This document shows positions 29,745 through 42,487 of a DNA stretch of 64,000 bases, piece after piece. A program made the translations under genes and the position numbers. A model generated the notes under the pieces. It saw nothing but the letters and a program-made list of their open reading frames with translations, had not been told where the DNA came from and did not search any database. Each line of letters begins with the position of its first letter. Positions within the stretch are counted from its first letter, which is position 1. Source of the stretch: a virus; the IMG/VR virus record IMGVR_UViG_3300042890_005066, positions 1-64,000 of that record; one strand, written 5' to 3'.

Positions 29745-29760
29745 TCCAAAGGACACTGTG

Positions 29761-30492
29761 ATGATAATCGCATACTATCCAATTCACTACGGCTCAGATT
29801 ACTTAGGTTACAGTATCAAAAGCATATATGACCGAGTTGACCAGATCCATATTTTATATGCACAGAACCCCTCACACGGGCATGGCACAAATCTCAAAAA
29901 CCCAGACACATTCGATAAATTACTAGAAGCGAGCTCGCAATTCGGAGACCCCCAGAATAAAATAGTATGGCATCACGGTGAATGGCCATACGAAGGTGCT
30001 CAACGAGACACTATTAATAAAATCGCTTCAAAAGTAAACGCCGACATGATACTGGCAGTCGATGCAGATGAAATATGGGACGAAAACGTTCTAGACCAGG
30101 CAATAACAACGGCATTTCAAAACAACAAAAAATTTAACCTAATCAGAATGTTAACGTTCTGGCGATGCTTCAATAAAGTAGTAACAGATGAAATGTGCCC
30201 AAACAGGATAATTCTACCAAAAGCAGAAGAAGGTACAAATTATCTTACCGGAAGGGTCCACCACTTCGGATACGCCAGAACAATCGAAAACATAGAATAC
30301 AAAATGTCGATCCACGGCCATAAAAACGAATGGCGAAAAGAATGGATAGACATATACAAAAATTGGCCCCACTCAAGAAACACAGACCTGCACCCAACAT
30401 GCGAAAACATGTGGACCGTAGAAGATTTTGATAAAACCACCCTGCCAGATTTCATGCACCAACACCCATACTACGATTTAGAAATAATCTAA
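29761..30492 (+). CDS. GT2-like glycosyltransferase
   Basis: 243 residues from the ATG at 29761 (a GTG three bases earlier is possible; AAAGGA lies 7 bases before the ATG). Early IIAYYPIHYGSDYLGYSI, then ADMILAVDADEIWDENV, where DADE is the metal-binding DxD of GT-A family 2-like enzymes. Ends with several His/Trp-rich segments. First gene of a plus-strand glycan cassette, divergent from the minus-strand small-gene operon. Acceptor unknown. Confidence 0.7.
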   Translation: MIIAYYPIHYGSDYLGYSIKSIYDRVDQIHILYAQNPSHGHGTNLKNPDTFDKLLEASSQFGDPQNKIVWHHGEWPYEGAQRDTINKIASKVNADMILAVDADEIWDENVLDQAITTAFQNNKKFNLIRMLTFWRCFNKVVTDEMCPNRIILPKAEEGTNYLTGRVHHFGYARTIENIEYKMSIHGHKNEWRKEWIDIYKNWPHSRNTDLHPTCENMWTVEDFDKTTLPDFMHQHPYYDLEII

Positions 30493-30501
30493 GAGGTAAA
30501 A

Positions 30502-31008
30502 ATGGGCGAGCTAAAAATGGGCAAAGGATCATACGGAAGTATAGTGAGACGAGGAGTCCACAATAGCATCACAGTTGGTAATTATTGCTCCATAGCAGAA
30601 GGATGCATCTGTGACGGTGGTTTCGGCCACAACACCAAATTTGTAACAACATATCCTTTAAACGTCAACATGAGAGACTGCAGTCAACTTACCGGACACC
30701 CTGTCTGGAAAGGAGACATCATAATAGGTAATGATGTATGGATCGGTGAACATTGTATGCTCATGAGCGGAATAACAATTGGAGATGGAGCAGTAATCGG
30801 CGCAAGATCGATAGTCACCAAAGATATACCACCATACACAATAGCAGCAGGCTCCCCAGCCAGAGTAATCAAAAAACGATTCACCGATGATCAAATAGAA
30901 AAATTGCTAAAAATAAAATGGTGGGACTGGGACGAACAAAAAATAGTCGACAATGCTCACCTGTTAATGAACACTAATATCGACAATTTCACATCTTTAC
31001 ACCTCTGA
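30502..31008 (+). CDS. Hexapeptide-repeat acyltransferase (CAT/WbbJ type)
   Basis: 168 residues. Left-handed beta-helix repeats: [13 protein letters not shown], then [41 protein letters not shown] and [13 protein letters not shown], the classical ending of acetyltransferases that modify sugars. GAGGTAAAAATG gives a good start. Ten bases after the glycosyltransferase gene. It probably O- or N-acetylates a sugar. Confidence 0.82.
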
Positions 31009-31018
31009 AAGAAACCAA

Positions 31019-31579
31019 ATGCTAGATTCTGCTAGAAACCTGTCGACGACAACAAGAGAAACTGTAAGCCAAACAGACCTATCAAAAAACATAAACAAGA
31101 TAGAGGACACTTTTGCTCATTATTATACGGCTTCCCCGGGTGCTGAACATTATAGGCTACTAGCATATATCAGTTATTTCACTAACGGAACCAATATCCT
31201 AGACATCGGAACTTATCTAGGATATTCATCGATAGCATTAAGCCAAAACAATAACAATAAAATTATTTCATACGACGTTAACAAACAACACAACCAAGAA
31301 GATCACGATAATGTTACTTATCGGATAGGTGATGCTAGAGACTTTGAGGATTTTGAAAACACAAAAGTGATATTGTTAGATACATATCACGACGGTGTAT
31401 ATGAAGAAAAATTCATAGAGCATTTAAGATCGATAAAATGGCATGGGTTACTCATCATGGATGATATCCATGAATACCCGCAGTTGAAAGAATTATACGA
31501 CAAATTGCCAGAAGAAAAATACGACATAACAAATATTGGTCACTGGTCAGGGACTGGTATAGTACTATTTCAAAAATAA
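31019..31579 (+). CDS. Class I SAM-dependent methyltransferase
   Basis: 186 residues. ILDIGTYLGYSSIAL is the SAM-binding motif I, SYDVNKQH motif II-like acidic loop, VILLDTYHDGVYEEKF and GLLIMDDIHEYPQLK follow, as in small O-methyltransferases related to the type-24 family. Part of the plus-strand glycan cassette. Confidence 0.75.
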   Translation: MLDSARNLSTTTRETVSQTDLSKNINKIEDTFAHYYTASPGAEHYRLLAYISYFTNGTNILDIGTYLGYSSIALSQNNNNKIISYDVNKQHNQEDHDNVTYRIGDARDFEDFENTKVILLDTYHDGVYEEKFIEHLRSIKWHGLLIMDDIHEYPQLKELYDKLPEEKYDITNIGHWSGTGIVLFQK

Positions 31580-31616
31580 ACTAAAACTCCCTTAATCAAT
31601 TGGATATCGCGATATA

Positions 31617-32255
31617 ATGATTAATCTTGATAGGATCACGGCTGTTTGCTGGGATGGGCGGCCTTTGACACCGGAGCGCTCATCTAGATATCAAGCTATT
31701 TTTAAGCATATGTCAAACAAATTCAAATTTGCTGCGATTAACTTATATATAAATGGTAGTTTTAACTATGAAGGAGTAAAAGTTACCAACATTAATGAAT
31801 CTAGCATAAACGATTACAATATATGGTGCCAAACCAAATTAGCTGACTCTTTTAACACTGATTTTGTGTTAGTATTTCAAGACGATGGCTTCCCAATACA
31901 TCCTGATAATTGGAAAAACGAGTTTTACGAATATGACTACATAGGTGCGCCATGGCCCTTATATATAGGATGGCCAAAAGAAAATTTTCAGGTAGGTAAT
32001 GGCGGTTTTAGTTTAAGATCGAAGAAAATATGCACAAGAGTACAAAAATTCCCTGCTACAACTAGCAATGAAGATGCAGTTCTCTGCTCAAATTATAAAC
32101 CATTGCTGGAGAAAGAGGGCTTTAAATGGGCACCCATAGATGTGGCTAAAAGCTTTGCTATTGAATTCCCAATAGACGAAAAACATTCATTAGCCAGCGT
32201 ATTTGGATATCATGGAAATGTGCATAATCATGAAATATCTAAGATCATATTTTGA
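31617..32255 (+). CDS. DUF5672-like glycosyltransferase-type protein
   Basis: 212 residues. The pattern FVLVFQDDGFPIHPDNW, DYIGAPWPLY and VGNGGFSLRSKK is that of DUF5672-type proteins found in glycan clusters and thought to be glycosyltransferases. QDDG holds acidic residues that could bind metal. No clear ribosome site before the ATG at 31617. Confidence 0.7.
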   Translation: MINLDRITAVCWDGRPLTPERSSRYQAIFKHMSNKFKFAAINLYINGSFNYEGVKVTNINESSINDYNIWCQTKLADSFNTDFVLVFQDDGFPIHPDNWKNEFYEYDYIGAPWPLYIGWPKENFQVGNGGFSLRSKKICTRVQKFPATTSNEDAVLCSNYKPLLEKEGFKWAPIDVAKSFAIEFPIDEKHSLASVFGYHGNVHNHEISKIIF

Positions 32256-32330
32256 AGCAGTGTTTTGATTCTACTAGGCCGAAAAACGTTGTAGCAACGG
32301 ACGATTAAAAATAATATGAGGAGCTAAATA
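32256..32330. other. Intergenic region with small inverted repeat
   Basis: 75 bases between two glycan genes. The only structure is a 5-bp inverted repeat CGTTG-TAG-CAACG without a T-tract, and a good ribosome site GAGGAGC before the next gene. No gene seen. Confidence 0.3.
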
Positions 32331-32966
32331 ATGAGCATTATGATAGGCATACCTGTAATTTATAATGAGACTTGTGTAAGAATATGCTTAGAACACTTAA
32401 AAAATCAAAACATCGAATTATTCATAATAGATAATAACTCAGAAGAATCGATCAAAAAACTAATCGAACCATATAAAAAAATAGTAAACGCACAAAACGT
32501 ATACGTGAACCCAGCATGGAACCAAATACTAGAGGAATTCCTTAAAACAGGCCATGACCTATTAGTCATAATGAATAGCGACCTTTACCTTAATCACGAC
32601 GTTATAAAAAAACTAAGCGAACTAGACTTAGATAGAGATAAAACCATAGCATGTCTAAACCTAGTAGACCTCTTCTATGAATGCGAGAGGCAAATAACCT
32701 ATGTTAGTGGTGGCGTAGCAGGCGTCTTTATCCCCTTAACCAAAAAAATGGCAAGAGAAGTATACCCAATACCGCCAGAACTAAAAATCTGGTACGGTGA
32801 TAACTGGATATATGAAAAACTCAAAAAAATAGGCTACCAGCTAACAATCTTTAACGATTTGCAAGCCCAACACATCTGGAGCAGTAGCGTGGGCGTACTG
32901 CCAGAAGCACACCAAGTTATAGAACAGGACCAACTAGCATGGCCGACAGTACAGACACGCATCTGA
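32331..32966 (+). CDS. GT2 family glycosyltransferase
   Basis: 211 residues. IGIPVIYNETCVRICLEHL and ELFIIDNNSEESIKKL are the N-terminal nucleotide-sugar-binding motifs of family 2, and LLVIMNSDLYLNHDVI contains the NSD variant of the DxD metal site. Ends with an IWSSSVG segment. Overlaps the next gene by 28 bases. Confidence 0.8.
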   Translation: MSIMIGIPVIYNETCVRICLEHLKNQNIELFIIDNNSEESIKKLIEPYKKIVNAQNVYVNPAWNQILEEFLKTGHDLLVIMNSDLYLNHDVIKKLSELDLDRDKTIACLNLVDLFYECERQITYVSGGVAGVFIPLTKKMAREVYPIPPELKIWYGDNWIYEKLKKIGYQLTIFNDLQAQHIWSSSVGVLPEAHQVIEQDQLAWPTVQTRI

Positions 32967-33535
32967 CCCGCGACATCATAATCAACAGACTTATCCAACA
33001 AAAAGAATACAAATCATACCTAGAGATAGGAATCCAATACAAAGTCAATTGGAACCTTATTAAATGCCAAGACATGGTCGGCGTAGAACCGTCAGCAGAT
33101 GAAATGCATGACGACAGAATAATCAAAGTCACAAGCGATCAATACTTCGCAAACCACACCAAAACTTTTGACATTATATTCATAGACGGCGACCATAACG
33201 CACCAACCGTAAGCAGAGATCTCGAGAATTCATTCAAAGTTTTAAACGAAGGAGGAACAGTTGTTTTACATGACACCTATCCTCCAGAAGAAGAGTTCAC
33301 ACACCCGTACAGATGTGGGACAGTATACGAAGCTGTCTGGCAATTCAGACAAAACCCGGGCTTCGACATACTCACATACCAACATGATTTTGGAGTCTGC
33401 CTTATGAAGAGGGGACAGACTGACAAGACAATACATCCAAAGACAACATACTCGGACTACGTGAACAACGCTAGAGAAATTATCAACTTAAAAAACACAA
33501 ACGAAGAATTTTACAGAGCATTAAAAGAATGGTGA
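32939..33535 (+). CDS. SAM-dependent methyltransferase (Methyltransf_24-like)
   Basis: 198 residues. YLEIGIQYKVNWNLIK is motif I, VGVEPSA motif II, DIIFIDGDHNAPTVSRDL is the characteristic IDGDH motif and GGTVVLHDTYPPEEEF follows, as in type-24 methyltransferases of cell-surface sugar clusters. Last gene of the plus-strand cassette; 2 bases from the convergent gene. Confidence 0.8.
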   Translation: MADSTDTHLTRDIIINRLIQQKEYKSYLEIGIQYKVNWNLIKCQDMVGVEPSADEMHDDRIIKVTSDQYFANHTKTFDIIFIDGDHNAPTVSRDLENSFKVLNEGGTVVLHDTYPPEEEFTHPYRCGTVYEAVWQFRQNPGFDILTYQHDFGVCLMKRGQTDKTIHPKTTYSDYVNNAREIINLKNTNEEFYRALKEW

Positions 33536-33536
33536 T

Positions 33537-33887
33537 CTAACCAGACGTTGCAAAGTTTATCTCGTGGGTCACCGTTTCTGCCGCATCTTTGGGTATCCAT
33601 GTTGCTTCAGCCTTAGAGGGCGAAACAAACTCGATCGAGTGATAAAACCAAGGGGAATACCATTCGAACAATACCGTCTGATTCACAGACGCTGAGACTC
33701 TATGAGGAGCCGGTATCAGACCACTCTCAAATTGGGCGAAAAAGCGCGACGCCGAATCCACAAGCTCAACAGGTGGAGTAATTGAATCTTCCCCATCAAA
33801 ATTATTCTCATAATTCCGTATTCTAAGTAATTCAGAGTAAATAAATTCAGGCGGCGTCTTGGCCCCCACAACGATCTTGTCACTCAT
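33537..33887 (-). CDS. Hypothetical protein of the 'NFDGEDS...P' family
   Basis: 116 residues from the ATG at 33887 (GGAG 7 bases upstream; a nearer in-frame ATG is 12 bases up). ELLRIRNYENNFDGEDSITPP with later PHRVSASVNQTVLFEWYSP fits a widespread small family with a WDG-like motif of unknown function, often in mobile or accessory regions. Convergent with the methyltransferase and downstream of the LAGLIDADG-methyltransferase gene. Confidence 0.5.
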   Translation of the reverse strand: MSDKIVVGAKTPPEFIYSELLRIRNYENNFDGEDSITPPVELVDSASRFFAQFESGLIPAPHRVSASVNQTVLFEWYSPWFYHSIEFVSPSKAEATWIPKDAAETVTHEINFATSG

Positions 33888-33928
33888 CACACGCTCCATT
33901 CTTAAAATTCTTTAATTAAGATACATCA

Positions 33929-35632
33929 TTAGTCGTGAGTAATTCTATCCTTGATTTCCGTAAACCATTCATTAGGTGCTTTGTGTCTATTGACAGAATA
34001 TAGTTTTATATCACTAGTGTCATATTCTTTATTTATAGAGGCTAACATAGTATTATCAACATGTAGCACCACCCGATCAGCCATGACCTTACATTTCCGT
34101 ATTAATGGCATGAAAAATGCCGATTCCCACTTCTCATAAGTCCCATAATTAACTCCATCCAAGTAATCCTCCTTATTATAAAATGGCGGAGATGTCAGAA
34201 TAAAATCCGACTTCTTCCAATCATAGTCTTGCCATTTTTTATTTTGAATATCGTATCCAGATCCTAGAAATTTTTGGATGCGTTTTAAACCCTCAAAAGT
34301 CACACCAGGATCAGTAGCTTCATACTCATAATTTAAAACATATGCAACCAAAAGTCTGTTACCCCAACCAGCACAAGGGTCGAACCATTTCCCTTTTAGA
34401 CCAAAATTCTTGATAGCCGCTAGTATGACTGGGACACTTAACAAAGAAGCACTAGACAAACCAGTATATTTAAGCTCTCTGAGAAGCCTAGCCGGGTATA
34501 GCTTATCCTCTTGCTTTAAGAACGCTTGCGTAGCTCTTCTAACATGCTTTTCATGCTTGATCAAATCGGCTAAACAGGGTGTATTATTCTGTCTTATACG
34601 AAATATAATTGGCTGGTAATGCGATATGACTTTATTGCCAGGTGCTAAACCATTCCTAATGCCCTCGCCTTCAATGAGATAGTTCTTAAGATTAATATTC
34701 TTGCAGTCCTCTAAATCTTTAGATACATCATATTTCGGATTAGACCATCCTTCTGATAGTAAACGCTTAAGTATAATCTGTTCAGTATTCTCATTTACAC
34801 ATGTTACTCTAAAATCATGCATATTATTCCATTCTATCCCATCAGATTTAACTAACGCACTATTAAATTTAAGCTTTTTTCGCAGAAGACAATACATGTA
34901 GCCGTTTTTGTAAATATAGCTGTGAAATGTCTCCACATTTTTTAGATTTGGATATACTAAAGCGTAAACACCTTTCCTATCCCTCACGATATTGGCAGGC
35001 CCACCGTCCACTATAATTCTATTCTTGATGGCTTCTAAATGGTCCTCGTACTTGCACACGATATTCGCATACCACCTTCTTTTCTTGCGATGTAACCTTT
35101 TCTGAGAACTGATGCAGCCATCTCCATCAAAATAGCCTCTAACAAATACAGAAAACAAGTCGTCAGGGATAACATCAAGAATCCTCGAATTTAAGCCAGT
35201 CTTATAATCAAGCCAGCCAAGCTCTATTAACTTCTTGCCCATGTAAACATCGTTAAACACGACAGAAACACGCCTATGACCGTCCCGGTTTGACACATGC
35301 AACTTGCCCCTATATCCTACAAATCTAGCGAATTCTTCTAAGTGGAGTTGATCTCTGTCCTGTATCGACAACCTCAAAGCCCGAAACGTACCAGCCGACT
35401 TTGCCAAACAACCGTCAGCAAGCAAAAATCCAAGCCAATAGGCTTTCTCAGGCATATCGATATTGTCAAAGATAGTGCTGTTAATTGTATAGGATCTAAC
35501 ACCCACACTATGGCCTTTCAAATCGGCCTTCTTCATTAGCCTTCTAATGGTTTTAATACTGACATTTAGGGATTCCGCCATCGATTGCTGAGTAGCACCA
35601 TTAGAGTGCATCTCTCTGATTCTGTCTATCAT
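33929..35632 (-). CDS. LAGLIDADG homing endonuclease fused to DNA methyltransferase
   Basis: 567 residues. Residues 1-38 form a helix-turn-helix (QSMAESLNVSIKTIRRLMKK). Residues about 55-255 are a LAGLIDADG endonuclease with two motifs, AYWLGFLLADGCL (64-76) and VFVRGYFDGDGCI (162-174). From about 280 on is a Rossmann methyltransferase with FDPCAGWGNR (417-426; motif I) and FILTSPPFY (477-485; motif IV of amino-methyltransferases of adenine N6 or cytosine N4). An internal Met271 could allow a separate methyltransferase product, but its ribosome site is weak. The start has TAGGAG at good spacing. No intein splice motifs seen. It lies between a small gene and the capsid gene's terminator. Confidence 0.8.
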   Translation of the reverse strand: MIDRIREMHSNGATQQSMAESLNVSIKTIRRLMKKADLKGHSVGVRSYTINSTIFDNIDMPEKAYWLGFLLADGCLAKSAGTFRALRLSIQDRDQLHLEEFARFVGYRGKLHVSNRDGHRRVSVVFNDVYMGKKLIELGWLDYKTGLNSRILDVIPDDLFSVFVRGYFDGDGCISSQKRLHRKKRRWYANIVCKYEDHLEAIKNRIIVDGGPANIVRDRKGVYALVYPNLKNVETFHSYIYKNGYMYCLLRKKLKFNSALVKSDGIEWNNMHDFRVTCVNENTEQIILKRLLSEGWSNPKYDVSKDLEDCKNINLKNYLIEGEGIRNGLAPGNKVISHYQPIIFRIRQNNTPCLADLIKHEKHVRRATQAFLKQEDKLYPARLLRELKYTGLSSASLLSVPVILAAIKNFGLKGKWFDPCAGWGNRLLVAYVLNYEYEATDPGVTFEGLKRIQKFLGSGYDIQNKKWQDYDWKKSDFILTSPPFYNKEDYLDGVNYGTYEKWESAFFMPLIRKCKVMADRVVLHVDNTMLASINKEYDTSDIKLYSVNRHKAPNEWFTEIKDRITHD

Positions 35633-35646
35633 ATCGATCTCCTATG

Positions 35647-35703
35647 GGTACTTTTATAAAATACACATACCGTGTACGTAATATATTTTTTAATAAAAGT
35701 ACC
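35647..35703. promoter_or_regulatory. Inverted repeat upstream of the LAGLIDADG-methyltransferase gene
   Basis: An 11-bp perfect inverted repeat (GGTACTTTTAT at 35647-35657 and ATAAAAGTACC at 35693-35703) encloses 35 AT-rich bases, within which TACAC-ATACC-GTGTA is a smaller palindrome. It lies just before the gene's ribosome site on the minus strand, so it could be an operator or RNA structure, or a remnant of insertion. Confidence 0.45.
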
Positions 35704-35792
35704 AACTGAGTTTCTATTATTCTTAATATTATATCAAGCGATACCAAGCTATAACTTTGCCATATTCTGTCATATTTTTTAGTAGAAATACT

Positions 35793-35822
35793 AAGACGCC
35801 CCAGATTTCTCTGGGGCGTCTT
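35793..35822 (-). terminator. Strong terminator after the major capsid gene
   Basis: Perfect 13-bp stem AAGACGCCCCAGA / TCTGGGGCGTCTT with a 4-base loop (35806-35809), 32 bases after the end of the capsid gene. On the minus strand it is followed by AGTATTTCT. It separates capsid transcription from the LAGLIDADG-methyltransferase gene. Confidence 0.82.
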
Positions 35823-35854
35823 GTGGCTTCCTTACTGTTTCTGAAAATCAGAAC

Positions 35855-37441
35855 TCACAGGTTAGAAACATTAATTGTCGCATAGTACAGACCGCCATCT
35901 TCAATCAGCTTCTTACCATAACGGCACATGATGCCCTTCGATGGCGAGTAGCTGTTGGGGTCGAGAACCGTAGGGGTACTCAGCAGCGGAATATAAGGAG
36001 CATAGAAGTAGCCAGCATCCAGAACGCTTGATCCCTTGAAGCCCATCAGGATTTTGCAGTTAGGGAACAATGGGTCCTTGTAGAGGCGCATCTTGCCTTG
36101 GATTGTTCCAACGTTCATGATGCCGATGTCCACACCTTCGGTGTTCATGGCGTCTGAGGCGCGGAAGTCGTTGAGTTGCTCGAACTTCGATGCGATGTCG
36201 GCGCTCATAACCATCCAGTTAGCAGGGCCACGCAGGGTGGTTCTGTGGATGATGTTGGCAACTTCGAGTGACTTGTACATCAGGGCGATGTTACGGTCGG
36301 TGAAGTTAACCGAGGCACCAGCGGCGGTGGCGAAGTTGTGATCGGCGCGGATAGCAGCAGCAATGATGAGGTCATTGATGATTTCCCGGTCGATTTCGGC
36401 AACCATTTCGTCGGCCATGAGGTCGGTCAAGGTGCTCTCAGCGTCAATGTTGTGAACTGACTTGAGGTCTTGAGCGGCTTCGAGGCTCCAGGAGGTCTTC
36501 AGCTTACGGGTGATTGCGGAGACCGAATCACTGTCGATGCTGAGGGTGACTTCTGGCTGGAATGGGTTGGATTCCAGGTCGTACTCGTAGTTGATGCGAG
36601 CGATCGCGCCAACTGGGTAGATGCCTGCTGTGAGGCGGATGTTTACTTCGCCGGTGGCGTGGTTGAAGCTTGAAGAGGCTTCGTTGACTGCCAGATTAGC
36701 GGTGAAGCTACAGTCGCCGATGACAACCGTGTCGACTGCGCCGTCGGAGTCGAAGGTGACGCGGAGACATGGTGTTGGGTCGTTACAAGCTGGGCTTGCT
36801 CCGGCTTCGTCGGCGTAGACTTCTACGGCTACTGTACCGGCGAGTACTGGGCGGTGAGCCAGTGTTTGTTGGACGTGGTTGCGGTTCAGAATCGTACCGG
36901 TTTCACCCACAACTTGTTGTGAGGAGTAGTATGGGTCGAGAGCCCAGCCGTTGTTACGGGCGTAACTTTGGGCTGTGTTTTGGCGCATGATCTGTGTTCC
37001 GGCGACCGTTTGTCCCTTGGAGAGGGCGTAGCGATAGCGGATGTAGAAGATGAGCGATGCTGGCTGGCTCATTGGCTGGACACCGACCAGGTTGTCGGCG
37101 ATCAGCTTTGGATATGATTTGCGGATGAGGGGGAGGGCAAACCGTGTGAAGTCAGCGATGTTCGATGTCGTGGTTTGGTCTTCCAGGATCATGGAGCGAC
37201 GTTCTGGGTTCCAGGCGTTGAACTGGTTTTCCAGGATGCTTGCCATGAGGCCGAATTTGGCCTTAGGTACTTCTTTGCACTTGTTGAGGACTGAGGCCCA
37301 TTTACCAACGAGTTGGTTTTTCTTGGACTCGTGGATGATGCTAGCCTTGTGGAGGTCCGTGGCGGCTCCAGCGATGGCTTGGCGGTTTTCGGTGAGGTGA
37401 CGACGGCCTTGTGGGGCGCGTGATTGTGTTCTGGGTAGCAT
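35855..37441 (-). CDS. 23: Major capsid protein (T4 gp23-like)
   Basis: 528 residues. ADFTRFALPLIRKSYPKLIADNLVGVQPM and the following ASLIFYIRYRYA are typical of gp23-type capsid proteins (HK97 fold). Later DREIINDLIIAAAIRADHNF and NWMVMSADIASKFEQL fit the same family. It is slightly longer than T4 gp23 (521). The N-terminal region is probably removed by the prohead protease encoded at 42543-43265. It follows the scaffold gene in the T4 order 21-22-23. A strong terminator follows. Confidence 0.92.
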   Translation of the reverse strand: MLPRTQSRAPQGRRHLTENRQAIAGAATDLHKASIIHESKKNQLVGKWASVLNKCKEVPKAKFGLMASILENQFNAWNPERRSMILEDQTTTSNIADFTRFALPLIRKSYPKLIADNLVGVQPMSQPASLIFYIRYRYALSKGQTVAGTQIMRQNTAQSYARNNGWALDPYYSSQQVVGETGTILNRNHVQQTLAHRPVLAGTVAVEVYADEAGASPACNDPTPCLRVTFDSDGAVDTVVIGDCSFTANLAVNEASSSFNHATGEVNIRLTAGIYPVGAIARINYEYDLESNPFQPEVTLSIDSDSVSAITRKLKTSWSLEAAQDLKSVHNIDAESTLTDLMADEMVAEIDREIINDLIIAAAIRADHNFATAAGASVNFTDRNIALMYKSLEVANIIHRTTLRGPANWMVMSADIASKFEQLNDFRASDAMNTEGVDIGIMNVGTIQGKMRLYKDPLFPNCKILMGFKGSSVLDAGYFYAPYIPLLSTPTVLDPNSYSPSKGIMCRYGKKLIEDGGLYYATINVSNL

Positions 37442-37493
37442 TTACTAACTCCGTACCTGTTCAGGAAAAAGTGTGTGAAATCGGATTCTAGTG

Positions 37494-38204
37494 TCAGACG
37501 AGGTCCGTGTCCATGTTTGCCGCGATGTCTAGGACTGTAATGTTACTGGTCGGTCGGACAGTTACGTTACTTTGTCTTGGCTTCGAGGCTGGACGGCGCT
37601 CTTGGCTTTCGAGAAGAGTGGCGCGAGTCGTTGTCGGTTTGCTTTGACGCACGGTTGGTTCCATTCGGCGGGGTGAGCGGTTTTCTACAACCGGTCTGCT
37701 CGCGTTTTGGAATTTAGCGTTTTCTGCGACTAGGGCTCGGTTCTGCTTCAGGGCTTTTTCGGCGATAGCTGTCTTACGATTAGCTTCGGCGACTGCTCTG
37801 TTGCGTTCTTCTGCAAGTTGCTGAGCTCGACGGTTGGCTTTTTCCAGAGCGGCGGCGGATTGTCCATTTGCAATACCATTCAGCTGTACGCCTTCGAGCA
37901 GTGCTCGAACGCTCTTGAGCTTGGTCATTGCTTGGGATTCGCTTAATGCCGACATTTTAGCCAGCTGGGTCTCGATCGCAGCGGATTTTGTCTCACAGAA
38001 AATCTGGAGACGACGGGCTAGCTCACGCTTGTGGGCTTCCGTTTCTTCGACGCAGACCTTCTTGGTTTTTTCAACTGTGCTATTAAAATTAGCAGCAAAT
38101 TGCTCTTGAAGACCTGTCTTGTATCTGTCCAAAGATTCAGCAATCGCATTTACCAATTCAGGCTTGCAACCAGACTTGGAGAGCAACTCTTTGATCTTAT
38201 CCAT
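37494..38204 (-). CDS. 22: Prohead core scaffolding protein (gp22-like)
   Basis: 236 residues, almost entirely helical with long coiled coils (RRAQQLAEERNRAVAEANRK) and a basic, Ser/Thr/Pro-rich region (RPVVENRSPRRMEP) before the C-terminus. Primary sequence similarity to T4 gp22 is weak, but composition, size and position between protease and capsid genes support it. As a scaffold it would be digested by the protease. Confidence 0.72.
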   Translation of the reverse strand: MDKIKELLSKSGCKPELVNAIAESLDRYKTGLQEQFAANFNSTVEKTKKVCVEETEAHKRELARRLQIFCETKSAAIETQLAKMSALSESQAMTKLKSVRALLEGVQLNGIANGQSAAALEKANRRAQQLAEERNRAVAEANRKTAIAEKALKQNRALVAENAKFQNASRPVVENRSPRRMEPTVRQSKPTTTRATLLESQERRPASKPRQSNVTVRPTSNITVLDIAANMDTDLV

Positions 38205-40176: not shown

Positions 40177-40914
40177 ATGAACAATATACCAGCTAATAGA
40201 GAGACCTGCGAAATCTCTTTGAATATCCTAAAAAGAATGCAACCATGGGGGGTAAAAAACTCGCCATATGCTTATAACCATATAGTTCCTGCCTCTACAC
40301 TAAGCCCTTGGTATAGCGATATAGAATTCATAGAAATCTATTCCAAAATAGGCATAAACTACACCCTCGTCGACCATTATAGGTGCTATGAACTCTGGAC
40401 GCTAGCAAAGCAGACCCACAAGATACCAGGTGTAATCCTTGAAGTTGGTGTATGGAGAGGAGGCTCCGGGGCTCTTCTAGCCAAAGCCGCACCCGACAAA
40501 AAAGTATACTTGGCAGATACGTTTAGTGGGGTCGTCAAGGCATCCAGTAAAGACTTAACTTACATTGGTGGAGAACATTCTGATACTTCTAGAGCGACAG
40601 TCCAGACAATACTGGACGAATTAGACATTACAAACGCGGAGGTGCTAGTTGGCGTATTTCCCGACGACACTGGGCATATGATTTCAGAAAATATAGCGCT
40701 ATTACATTGTGATGTAGACGTCTTTGAGTCAGCAAGAGACATTACGCAATGGTGCCTGCCAAAGCTTTCAGTCGGTGGTATACTCGTATTTGATGACTAT
40801 GGGTTTGAACAATGCAATGGAATAAGCTTACTTTGTGATATGCTTAGAGAAGATGAGAATTTACTGTTTTTATATAATCTAAATGGGCATGCGATATTCA
40901 TTAAAATTAAATGA
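40177..40914 (+). CDS. TylF/MycF-type O-methyltransferase
   Basis: 245 residues. GVILEVGVWRGGSGALLAKA is motif I, KVYLADTFSGV has the acidic residue after it, LLHCDVDVFES holds the metal-binding acidic residues and GGILVFDDYGFEQCNG the third metal site, as in the Mg-dependent TylF family of sugar O-methyltransferases. AAGGGACC precedes the ATG. Divergent from the GT9-like gene and convergent with the Vsr-like gene (8-base overlap). Confidence 0.82.
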   Translation: MNNIPANRETCEISLNILKRMQPWGVKNSPYAYNHIVPASTLSPWYSDIEFIEIYSKIGINYTLVDHYRCYELWTLAKQTHKIPGVILEVGVWRGGSGALLAKAAPDKKVYLADTFSGVVKASSKDLTYIGGEHSDTSRATVQTILDELDITNAEVLVGVFPDDTGHMISENIALLHCDVDVFESARDITQWCLPKLSVGGILVFDDYGFEQCNGISLLCDMLREDENLLFLYNLNGHAIFIKIK

Positions 40915-42427
40915 TGATCTTTACAAAACATAATTTCTTACCACCATACTTTTTAATATATCCGAACTGCTCTGCATAAGCGTTCTCAGTTGTGCTAAGC
41001 CTTTTAGCCCTAGAGTACAAGGTCTTCTTATGCATCACCCATCCATTCTGATCCACATACCAATAATCAGAGTCAACTTCGTGGTGCATTTTAAAACCCA
41101 AAGACTTATAGACAGCTCCAGTATGTCCAACTGTGGTGTCACAATAGCTCACTATATTATCACAGTCCAAATGCTTAAAAGTCTTAGACAGGAAATAACT
41201 AGCCAGATTGTGCTTTTGATAACTTGGATGGATACAAAGCCTTGCCAATTCTAAGCTTTTACCATCGAACTGATGACCAATATTCTGACGGACCAAGTTA
41301 GAATAAACGGCACAAGCCACAAGCTCATCACCCAAAAAAGCTCCAAAGCATTTGCCTGACCTTCCTTTCCCAATGTAATGGTAGGCATCGAGGAAGCTAT
41401 TCAAGGACTTCGCTGATACATCATCAGATATTTTAAGATCCTTAAAATCGAAATCGTTCACCTTAACATCAATGCCAAACTTGGACTTAAGCCTCCCGAG
41501 TACCTTATCCTTAGCATAAAACTCATGCTCCCAGATATACATTATCTCATATTCTGGAAAATACTTCTCGATATAGGTGAATTTAGCCTTATCTCTGGCA
41601 GGTGCTCTTTCTAGTGTATGCCAATAGTCACCCTGGCATTCAATCAATAGCCTCTTATACCTCGTAGGGACCATACAATCGAAGACATATGGCCCTATCA
41701 CTGTATTTGGACCCTCTTTGTGATAGGCGATATTCAAATCATCTAGAAACTTGTAGAGTAACCTCTGAATATTACTCTCTCTAGGCTGATTAGCCCTAGC
41801 AACAGCCATTTTGGACTTCACATCTTCAGTATATCCTGATGATTGCTTGGCTCTGTAGCCATCATTATTCCATAAAACTTTGCTCTGTCTACTCTTTAAT
41901 TCAGAATAGTCTTCTCTTTGCCAAGCCAATTTTACGGATTCTGATAGCATCTTTATTCTCTGTGTATCAGACCATATCTTCTTTGATATTTCCGATCTTC
42001 TGTCTTTGGATAACTCTTTTTTAGCAGACATTTGGTCCCTATAACTGCTATCAGCCCACCTCTCTTTAGCTAATTCTGATAGTATCTTTTTACCCTCTTC
42101 AGACGGGGTATTGTGTACCACAATGAATTTTCCATCCTTATGCCCCTGAACCATAGCACAATGATGGCATCTCCAATCTTTAAACCTTCCAGCCCTAAAT
42201 AGCTGCTCCTGTGTCTTACCACAATCAATGCAAGTATAAGTCACTATTTCGTTTGTCTTCATCTCATGCTTCTGCTTAACACATGACATGCATATATGCT
42301 CTGGCTTTCTTTTAGCCACTTGATATAGCTGGCTTCTAGGCTTATTGCATTTTTCGCAGACGACAATAATTTTGTCTTTATTTTTCGCTATTTCTACCGA
42401 TGATTTTGAAAGCTGCCAATCTATCAT
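40907..42427 (-). CDS. Vsr/EDxHD-like homing endonuclease with GNAT/Mom-like C-terminal domain
   Basis: 506 residues from the ATG at 42427 (AAGGAG at good spacing; the frame extends upstream without support). Zinc fingers CEKC...CMSC (24-49) and CIDC...CHHC (66-90) are followed by NUMOD3-like repeats (e.g. KERWADSSYRDQ, KIWSDTQR, AWQREDYSEL). The nuclease core (215-310) has YVFDCMVP, LLIECQGDYWH (261-270) and IMYIWEHEF (295-303), the Vsr-type EDxHD pattern. Residues about 335-470 resemble GNAT/Mom-type acyltransferases (LELARLCIHP, SYCDTTVGHTGAVYKSLGF). Free-standing between the TylF gene and the protease gene. Confidence 0.7.
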   Translation of the reverse strand: MIDWQLSKSSVEIAKNKDKIIVVCEKCNKPRSQLYQVAKRKPEHICMSCVKQKHEMKTNEIVTYTCIDCGKTQEQLFRAGRFKDWRCHHCAMVQGHKDGKFIVVHNTPSEEGKKILSELAKERWADSSYRDQMSAKKELSKDRRSEISKKIWSDTQRIKMLSESVKLAWQREDYSELKSRQSKVLWNNDGYRAKQSSGYTEDVKSKMAVARANQPRESNIQRLLYKFLDDLNIAYHKEGPNTVIGPYVFDCMVPTRYKRLLIECQGDYWHTLERAPARDKAKFTYIEKYFPEYEIMYIWEHEFYAKDKVLGRLKSKFGIDVKVNDFDFKDLKISDDVSAKSLNSFLDAYHYIGKGRSGKCFGAFLGDELVACAVYSNLVRQNIGHQFDGKSLELARLCIHPSYQKHNLASYFLSKTFKHLDCDNIVSYCDTTVGHTGAVYKSLGFKMHHEVDSDYWYVDQNGWVMHKKTLYSRAKRLSTTENAYAEQFGYIKKYGGKKLCFVKIII

Positions 42428-42487
42428 ATAAGTGCTCCTTATTATATTTATAATACAAGGAGCTGCCAAGCTACGGATTATATGAAA

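Follow-up and report, generated by a model that had tools for sequence, protein, structure and literature searches.

Directly 3′ of its gp23-like capsid gene, and read in the same direction, the stretch of DNA from a T4-like phage analysed here (the window; 64,000 nucleotides, part of a 65.8-kb virus record) carries one gene predicted to encode a LAGLIDADG homing endonuclease joined in frame to an amino-type DNA methyltransferase (MTase). The best reading of this gene, although a tentative one, is that of a free-standing homing endonuclease that would have a DNA modifier of its own on the same polypeptide and so protect itself. The gene and its parts are as follows:

33929-35632, minus strand: fusion gene, 567 aa, comprising a helix-turn-helix (HTH), a LAGLIDADG nuclease and an amino-type DNA methyltransferase (frame, profile matches, alignment, model)
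35525-35629, minus strand: N-terminal HTH, residues 2-36 (three helices in the model; Pfam HTH matches weak)
35405-35452, minus strand: LAGLIDADG helix 1 and motif, residues 61-76, catalytic D73 (alignment, model)
35111-35164, minus strand: LAGLIDADG helix 2 and motif, residues 157-174, catalytic D171 (Pfam, alignment, model)
33932-34795, minus strand: methyltransferase domain, residues ~280-567 (alignment, model, structure and profile matches)
34355-34384, minus strand: methyltransferase motif I, FDPCAGWGNR, residues 417-426 (conservation)
34181-34195, minus strand: methyltransferase motif IV, TSPPF, residues 480-484 (conservation)

The gene is a single ATG-started frame of 567 codons with zero internal stops and with GGAG 6 nt 5′ of the ATG. 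The same frame is present in an independent contig (IMGVR_3300010885_052152; L001/L096) at 98% amino acid identity and against a different gp23 background, and more distant LAGLIDADG-MTase fusions, which share 51% (L105), 45% (L149), 37% (L163) and 30% (L159) identity with that of the window, retain D73, D171 and the MTase core in the alignment. The one-frame fusion noticed in the preliminary description is thus real; the two outcomes that the description had named as fatal, a sequencing error between separate genes and the loss of key residues in relatives, are contradicted by the second contig and the diverged fusions, in which the key residues of both domains are kept. An intron or intein was also rejected, as the nuclease is N-terminal, Pfam gives no splicing-domain match and Rfam finds no intron in 33400-37500, where its sole match (BjrC68) falls below the gathering score and lies over a terminator hairpin. 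In comparison with L096, the nuclease half has a dN of 0.003 and a dS of 0.045 (dN/dS ~0.07) and the MTase half a dN of 0.007 and a dS of 0.057 (dN/dS ~0.12), ratios indicative of purifying selection on both. An AlphaFold2 model built on a 44-row alignment has a mean pLDDT of 91.7 and a pTM of 0.65, values that speak for reliable individual domains but not for their position relative to each other.

The nuclease half is predicted to be an intact, two-motif LAGLIDADG homing endonuclease. Residues 3-256 match PHROG 4645 ("endonuclease") with an E value of 7.8e-41 over nearly the whole length of the family and up to its C-terminal end, and the Pfam LAGLIDADG_3 match exceeds the Pfam cut-off. The two motifs were initially placed at residues 64-76 and 162-174, in agreement with predicted helices at 61-73 and 157-171, and D73 and D171 are invariant in seven of seven aligned fusions. 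Structure prediction, proposed at the outset as a check on both halves, returned a LAGLIDADG fold here (two helices with catalytic acidic residues and two alpha-beta-beta-alpha-beta-beta-alpha repeats; PI-PfuI, Z 18.8 over 183 residues at 2.5 A; I-DmoI, Z ~15) and a class I MTase fold for the remainder. That the nuclease half is inactive, a mere DNA-targeting domain for the MTase, has next to no probability: the invariance of D73 and D171, the dN/dS of ~0.07 and the homing footprint in L096 (see below) argue against it, although inspection of the predicted secondary structure reveals no obvious separate target-recognition domain in the MTase half, as this alternative would have it. Among LAGLIDADG_3-type open reading frames, an MTase is absent from ~80 of 99 in viral contigs and from 90 of 90 in bacterial and archaeal genomes; the genome scan for a bacterial origin, driven by nuclease motifs, gave unfused LAGLIDADG_3 proteins only, and bacterial MTase fusions with other nucleases may have escaped a scan of that design.

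The C-terminal half, when searched alone, has no Pfam or NCBIfam match and only a weak match to phrog_12517, and its identification as an amino-type (N6A/N4C) DNA MTase comes from the profile of its relatives, a phage MTase family near PHROG 12517 whose members stand as genes of their own in Vibrio phage 2.058.O and in Staphylococcus phages. Motif I followed by motif IV in a class I fold is the arrangement of an amino-MTase, and the core recognised in the preliminary description is intact, with D418, G422, G424, R426, T480-S481-P482-P483, E488 and Y490 invariant among 22 diverse members. By fold the substrate could be RNA, as the nearest structures are RNA MTases (Trm11, TrmN and METTL5; Z ~15), whereas the family profile, when compared with solved structures, matches DNA MTases only, and the Pfam matches of the relatives' MTases also point to DNA rather than RNA. 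Met271, which had been put forward as the old start of the MTase, is unsupported in that role because it is not conserved (Ile is the residue in most other members of the fusion alignment, e.g. "NNIHDF"); the start of the MTase domain lies near residue 280. Members of this MTase family are also found fused to an RNA ligase (RNA_lig_T4_1) domain in L081:2677-4230 and to a ParB_N domain in L038, L069 and L074.

The following features surround the fusion upstream:

35647-35703, minus strand: inverted repeat (RNA hairpin) just 5′ of the ribosome-binding site (-22.9 kcal/mol, z -3.4)
35793-35822, minus strand: terminator-like hairpin between gp23 and the fusion gene (structure prediction)
35855-37441, minus strand: gp23-like major capsid protein gene (gp23 search, homology)

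In T4, segD lies between genes 23 and 24 (PMC2988022), and the fusion occupies this segD position. Strong hairpins also precede other fusions (L105:5620-5706, z -6.5; L149:5600-5680, z -4.6; L172:2740-2824, z -8.1), where they are long, almost perfect inverted repeats of unrelated sequence just 5′ of the LAGLIDADG-MTase start; none was found at the same position before the L159, L163 and L127 fusions. These repeats may have a role in regulation or be tied to the target. On its other side the fusion adjoins a 120-aa protein of no Pfam match (33537-33899, minus strand), and DNA similar to this gene also lies behind an HNH gene in L090, L093 and L095, partly duplicated in L093 and L095. Beyond it, a cluster at 29758-33535 (plus strand), opposed to the capsid genes, resembles by eye glycosyltransferases, a hexapeptide acetyltransferase and small-molecule methyltransferases.

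The fusion shows well-supported signs of having moved between phages. In phages with nearly the same gp23 it is missing: L090, L091, L093 and L095 have an HNH gene instead, and L092 has 184 bp behind gp23 that appear to be an HNH-gene remnant. The gp23 genes of L095 and L096 are ~99% identical up to nt 1380, and from nt 1431 to the stop L096 is window-like at 23 of the 24 sites that separate the window from L095; its pre-fusion spacer is identical to that of the window along its whole length. L096 thus has an L095-type backbone followed by a window-type gp23 3′ end and the fusion, with the switch between the two falling within gp23 nt 1380-1431. Homing would produce such a pattern, since a break near the gp23 3′ end would be repaired from the carrier, although the pattern is seen in one natural pair (L095/L096) and could also result from ordinary recombination. 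Copying into an allele that lacks the element, with co-conversion of the flank, is what defines a homing endonuclease, and on the sequences compared, gene conversion that took the gp23 3′ end along is a well-supported account of how the fusion moved. The counterpart of this tract in the window is the gp23 3′ end from 36011-36062 on, which is likely the neighbourhood of the cleavage target.

LAGLIDADG nucleases have long, rare recognition sites and are ill-suited to restriction. This property, together with presence/absence and gene conversion at one site as signs of homing, speaks against a distinctly improbable alternative, that of a single-chain, type IIG-like restriction-modification enzyme directed against unmodified DNA, be it from co-infecting phages or from the host, with homing secondary. 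The alternative draws on the resemblance of the architecture to bifunctional nuclease-MTase enzymes, on the Mom-REase fusions of jumbo phages, for which Iyer et al. proposed such a combination of protection and attack (PMC7824862), and on a Mom-REase fusion that the window encodes at the far side of its capsid genes:

40907-42469, minus strand: REase_MTES_1575 and Mom fusion, Hef-like (Pfam Mom 6.6e-15, MTES_1575 1.5e-5)

This second fusion is placed between a gp21-like protease gene (recognised by eye) and gp22/gp23. REase-Mom-type fusions were also observed near the capsid genes of L096, L134, L149, L158 and L105.

A survey of the site behind gp23 places the fusion in a wider context. The gp23 search yielded 80 loci, 67 of which, the window among them, extended at least 1.3 kb past gp23 and reduced to 48 non-redundant loci; the site holds a nuclease-MTase fusion in 16, a nuclease-Mom fusion in 3, a nuclease only in 9 (nearly all HNH), an unfused MTase in 4 and nothing detected in 16. 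The 16 fusions comprise LAGLIDADG_3 (window, L096, L105, L127, L149, L159 and L163), HNH (L106 and L153), NUMOD3/TnsA-like (L104 and L112) and multi-HTH plus PD-(D/E)XK forms (L136, L139, L143, L154 and L158), the last labelled by eye from a PDF...EIK motif rather than from a Pfam match; further fusions beside gp23 occur in L172 and L173 (LAGLIDADG_3) and L010 (TnsA-like). Vsr-like nuclease and Mom fusions were seen directly behind gp23 at L099:5305-6621, L111:1858-3378, L134:5567-7087 and L135:4168-5715. In a tree of 62 MTase domains, 20 of 21 gp23-site MTases (all except the Vsr-type L055) fall on one side of a branch with support of 96/90, a clustering that is partly expected from the kinship of the sampled phages. 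Because the gp23-site MTases form one clade, the nuclease domains have been exchanged on one resident lineage, which held the site while its nuclease partner changed.

These counts bear on two further explanations. According to the first, which is unlikely, the homing endonuclease spreads the gene and the MTase is cargo, a passenger with its own recognition sequence, useful to the phage for withstanding host restriction or for regulation. A search for the MTase without the nuclease, which the preliminary description had recommended, is consistent with such a role, in that the same family proved common as a separate phage gene (L005, L006, L024 and others), and at the gp23 site the four unfused MTases stand alone (L151) or behind a separate HNH gene (the other three); yet 16 of the 20 MTase-bearing gp23 loci have the MTase joined to a recognised nuclease, and a passenger needs no fusion, let alone repeated fusion with unrelated nucleases. 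The second holds that a homing nuclease gene inserted by chance, and in frame, 5′ of an MTase gene that was already there and that the halves do not cooperate. The unfused MTase of L151 and the unfused state of most LAGLIDADG_3 nucleases of the same kind fit this account, but several nuclease families show such a pairing, which has persisted across deep divergence (~30-50% identity), and chance is thus very improbable; invasion of an MTase gene, one of three proposals made initially, is for this reason the weakest of them, and either of the other two, protection of the cleaved target or a selfish restriction-modification unit, may apply.

Comparable fusions involve other MTase lineages as well. 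LAGLIDADG_2-HTH-MTase proteins are found in L004 (1230 aa, a jumbo phage), L013, L017, L019, L023, L025, L027 and L040, Vsr-like nuclease-MTase fusions in L008 and L055, and LAGLIDADG_3 fused to another MTase lineage in L179, L235 and L248; a single origin of all LAGLIDADG_3-MTase pairs, these three together with those of the gp23 site, is rejected (p-AU 1.3e-48). In L185, L187, L206, L211, L214, L234, L241 and L242 a LAGLIDADG_3 gene is followed by a separate, adjoining or overlapping beta-class N6_N4 MTase gene (~290 aa); these pairs were left out of the fusion counts as their MTase is of another class.

Since nucleases have been exchanged on one MTase lineage and fusions recur, cutting and modifying seem to belong together. 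In the proposed self-protecting element, the nuclease would cut near the gp23 3′ end of element-free phages during co-infection, and repair from the carrier would copy the element into the cut phage; the fused MTase, which the HTH/LAGLIDADG part common to both activities would direct to that target too, would methylate the carrier's copy and leave it uncut. Nuclease types would be exchangeable on one MTase lineage because, through the covalent linkage, the attached nuclease would also aim the MTase. Self-protection by methylation is the weakest step of this mechanism: methylation is not required for immunity, because the 24-site gp23 conversion alone would be enough to destroy the target, as in ordinary homing; many free-standing nucleases, at the gp23 site and elsewhere, have no modifier; and the MTase may have a recognition of its own. 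More tentative still is the generalisation that homing nucleases of at least four folds, repeatedly joined to an MTase or to Mom, form a general self-protecting mobile class, a homing restriction-modification unit in which a single DNA-binding part would direct cutting as well as protection and the carrier could keep its target.

The usual explanation for why a homing endonuclease spares its carrier is that the target there has been disrupted or changed. A modifier in the same protein, if the proposal is true, would offer a second route to carrier safety and would tie homing endonucleases to restriction-modification, two selfish DNA-cutting strategies that are usually kept apart. The same MTase joined to several kinds of cutter at one site points to a mobile element equipped with protection of its own. 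The question can be tested because nuclease types have been exchanged on a single MTase lineage at one site, and the analogous Hef-like genes of cultured T4-like phages are laboratory material for this. In addition, such fusions could be naturally occurring, targeted DNA methyltransferases with long sites.

Among known systems, the free-standing homing endonucleases of T4-type phages (SegD, SegA-G and MobA-E) are likewise separate genes next to a conserved phage gene; segD in particular lies 3′ of gp23, with presence/absence and converted flanks, and the segD-like seg43(25) has, as the fusion does, a leader hairpin of its own (PMC2988022). Unlike the fusion, the T4 Seg and Mob enzymes are GIY-YIG or HNH nucleases without a DNA-modifying domain (PMC2988022), and segD is opposed to gp23 whereas the fusion reads with it. 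The Hef-like and REase-Mom fusions (PMC3296691, PMC7824862) also unite a nuclease and a DNA modifier in one chain, as in the CP81 Hef with its REase-like and Mom-like parts, but their nuclease is of the Vsr/REase fold and their modifier an acyltransferase rather than a methyltransferase; an REase-fold nuclease with a Mom-like acyltransferase is what 40907-42469 encodes and what 33929-35632 does not. With profiles built here, Campylobacter CP81 Hef matches Vsr (E 2.5e-8) and Mom (E 5.7e-12). Genes of the Hef type separate gp23 from gp24, in opposite orientation, in Acinetobacter phage KARL-1 (L331:817-2358) and Yersinia phage phiR1-RT (L332:823-2337), a kinship that rests on tblastn to CP81 Hef; Pfam Mom matches none of the three Hef proteins, and the Vsr and Mom profiles built here give no direct match to those of KARL-1 and phiR1-RT. 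No paper that ties Hef homing to Mom-type modification was found in the open-access literature. Cleavage by Hef, its own DNA included, was reportedly shown by Sandegren et al. in 2005.

Type IIG/IIC enzymes have a PD-(D/E)XK nuclease and short recognition sites. Like the fusion, they carry a nuclease and an amino-MTase on one polypeptide (TspGWI, RM.BpuSI and MmeI); the fusion differs in its LAGLIDADG nuclease at a mobile locus, and the pairing of a PD-(D/E)XK nuclease with an amino-MTase, absent from it, occurs in its relatives. In the ShiLan element (PMC11855218) a homing nuclease is associated with a phage DNA methylase, but there an HNH gene lies out of frame inside the methylase gene, whereas one frame encodes both in the window. 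The HTH-LAGLIDADG endonucleases of the LAGLIDADG_3/PHROG 4645 family resemble residues 3-256 of the fusion up to the family's C-terminal end, where, unlike the fusion, most members stop without an MTase. No LAGLIDADG-MTase or HNH-MTase fusion was found in the open-access literature searched. The nuclease-modifier fusion as a kind thus has precedent in the Hef-like and REase-Mom proteins, and the joining of LAGLIDADG, HNH and TnsA-like nucleases to an amino-MTase, together with the exchange of modules at one site, appears to be new within that literature.
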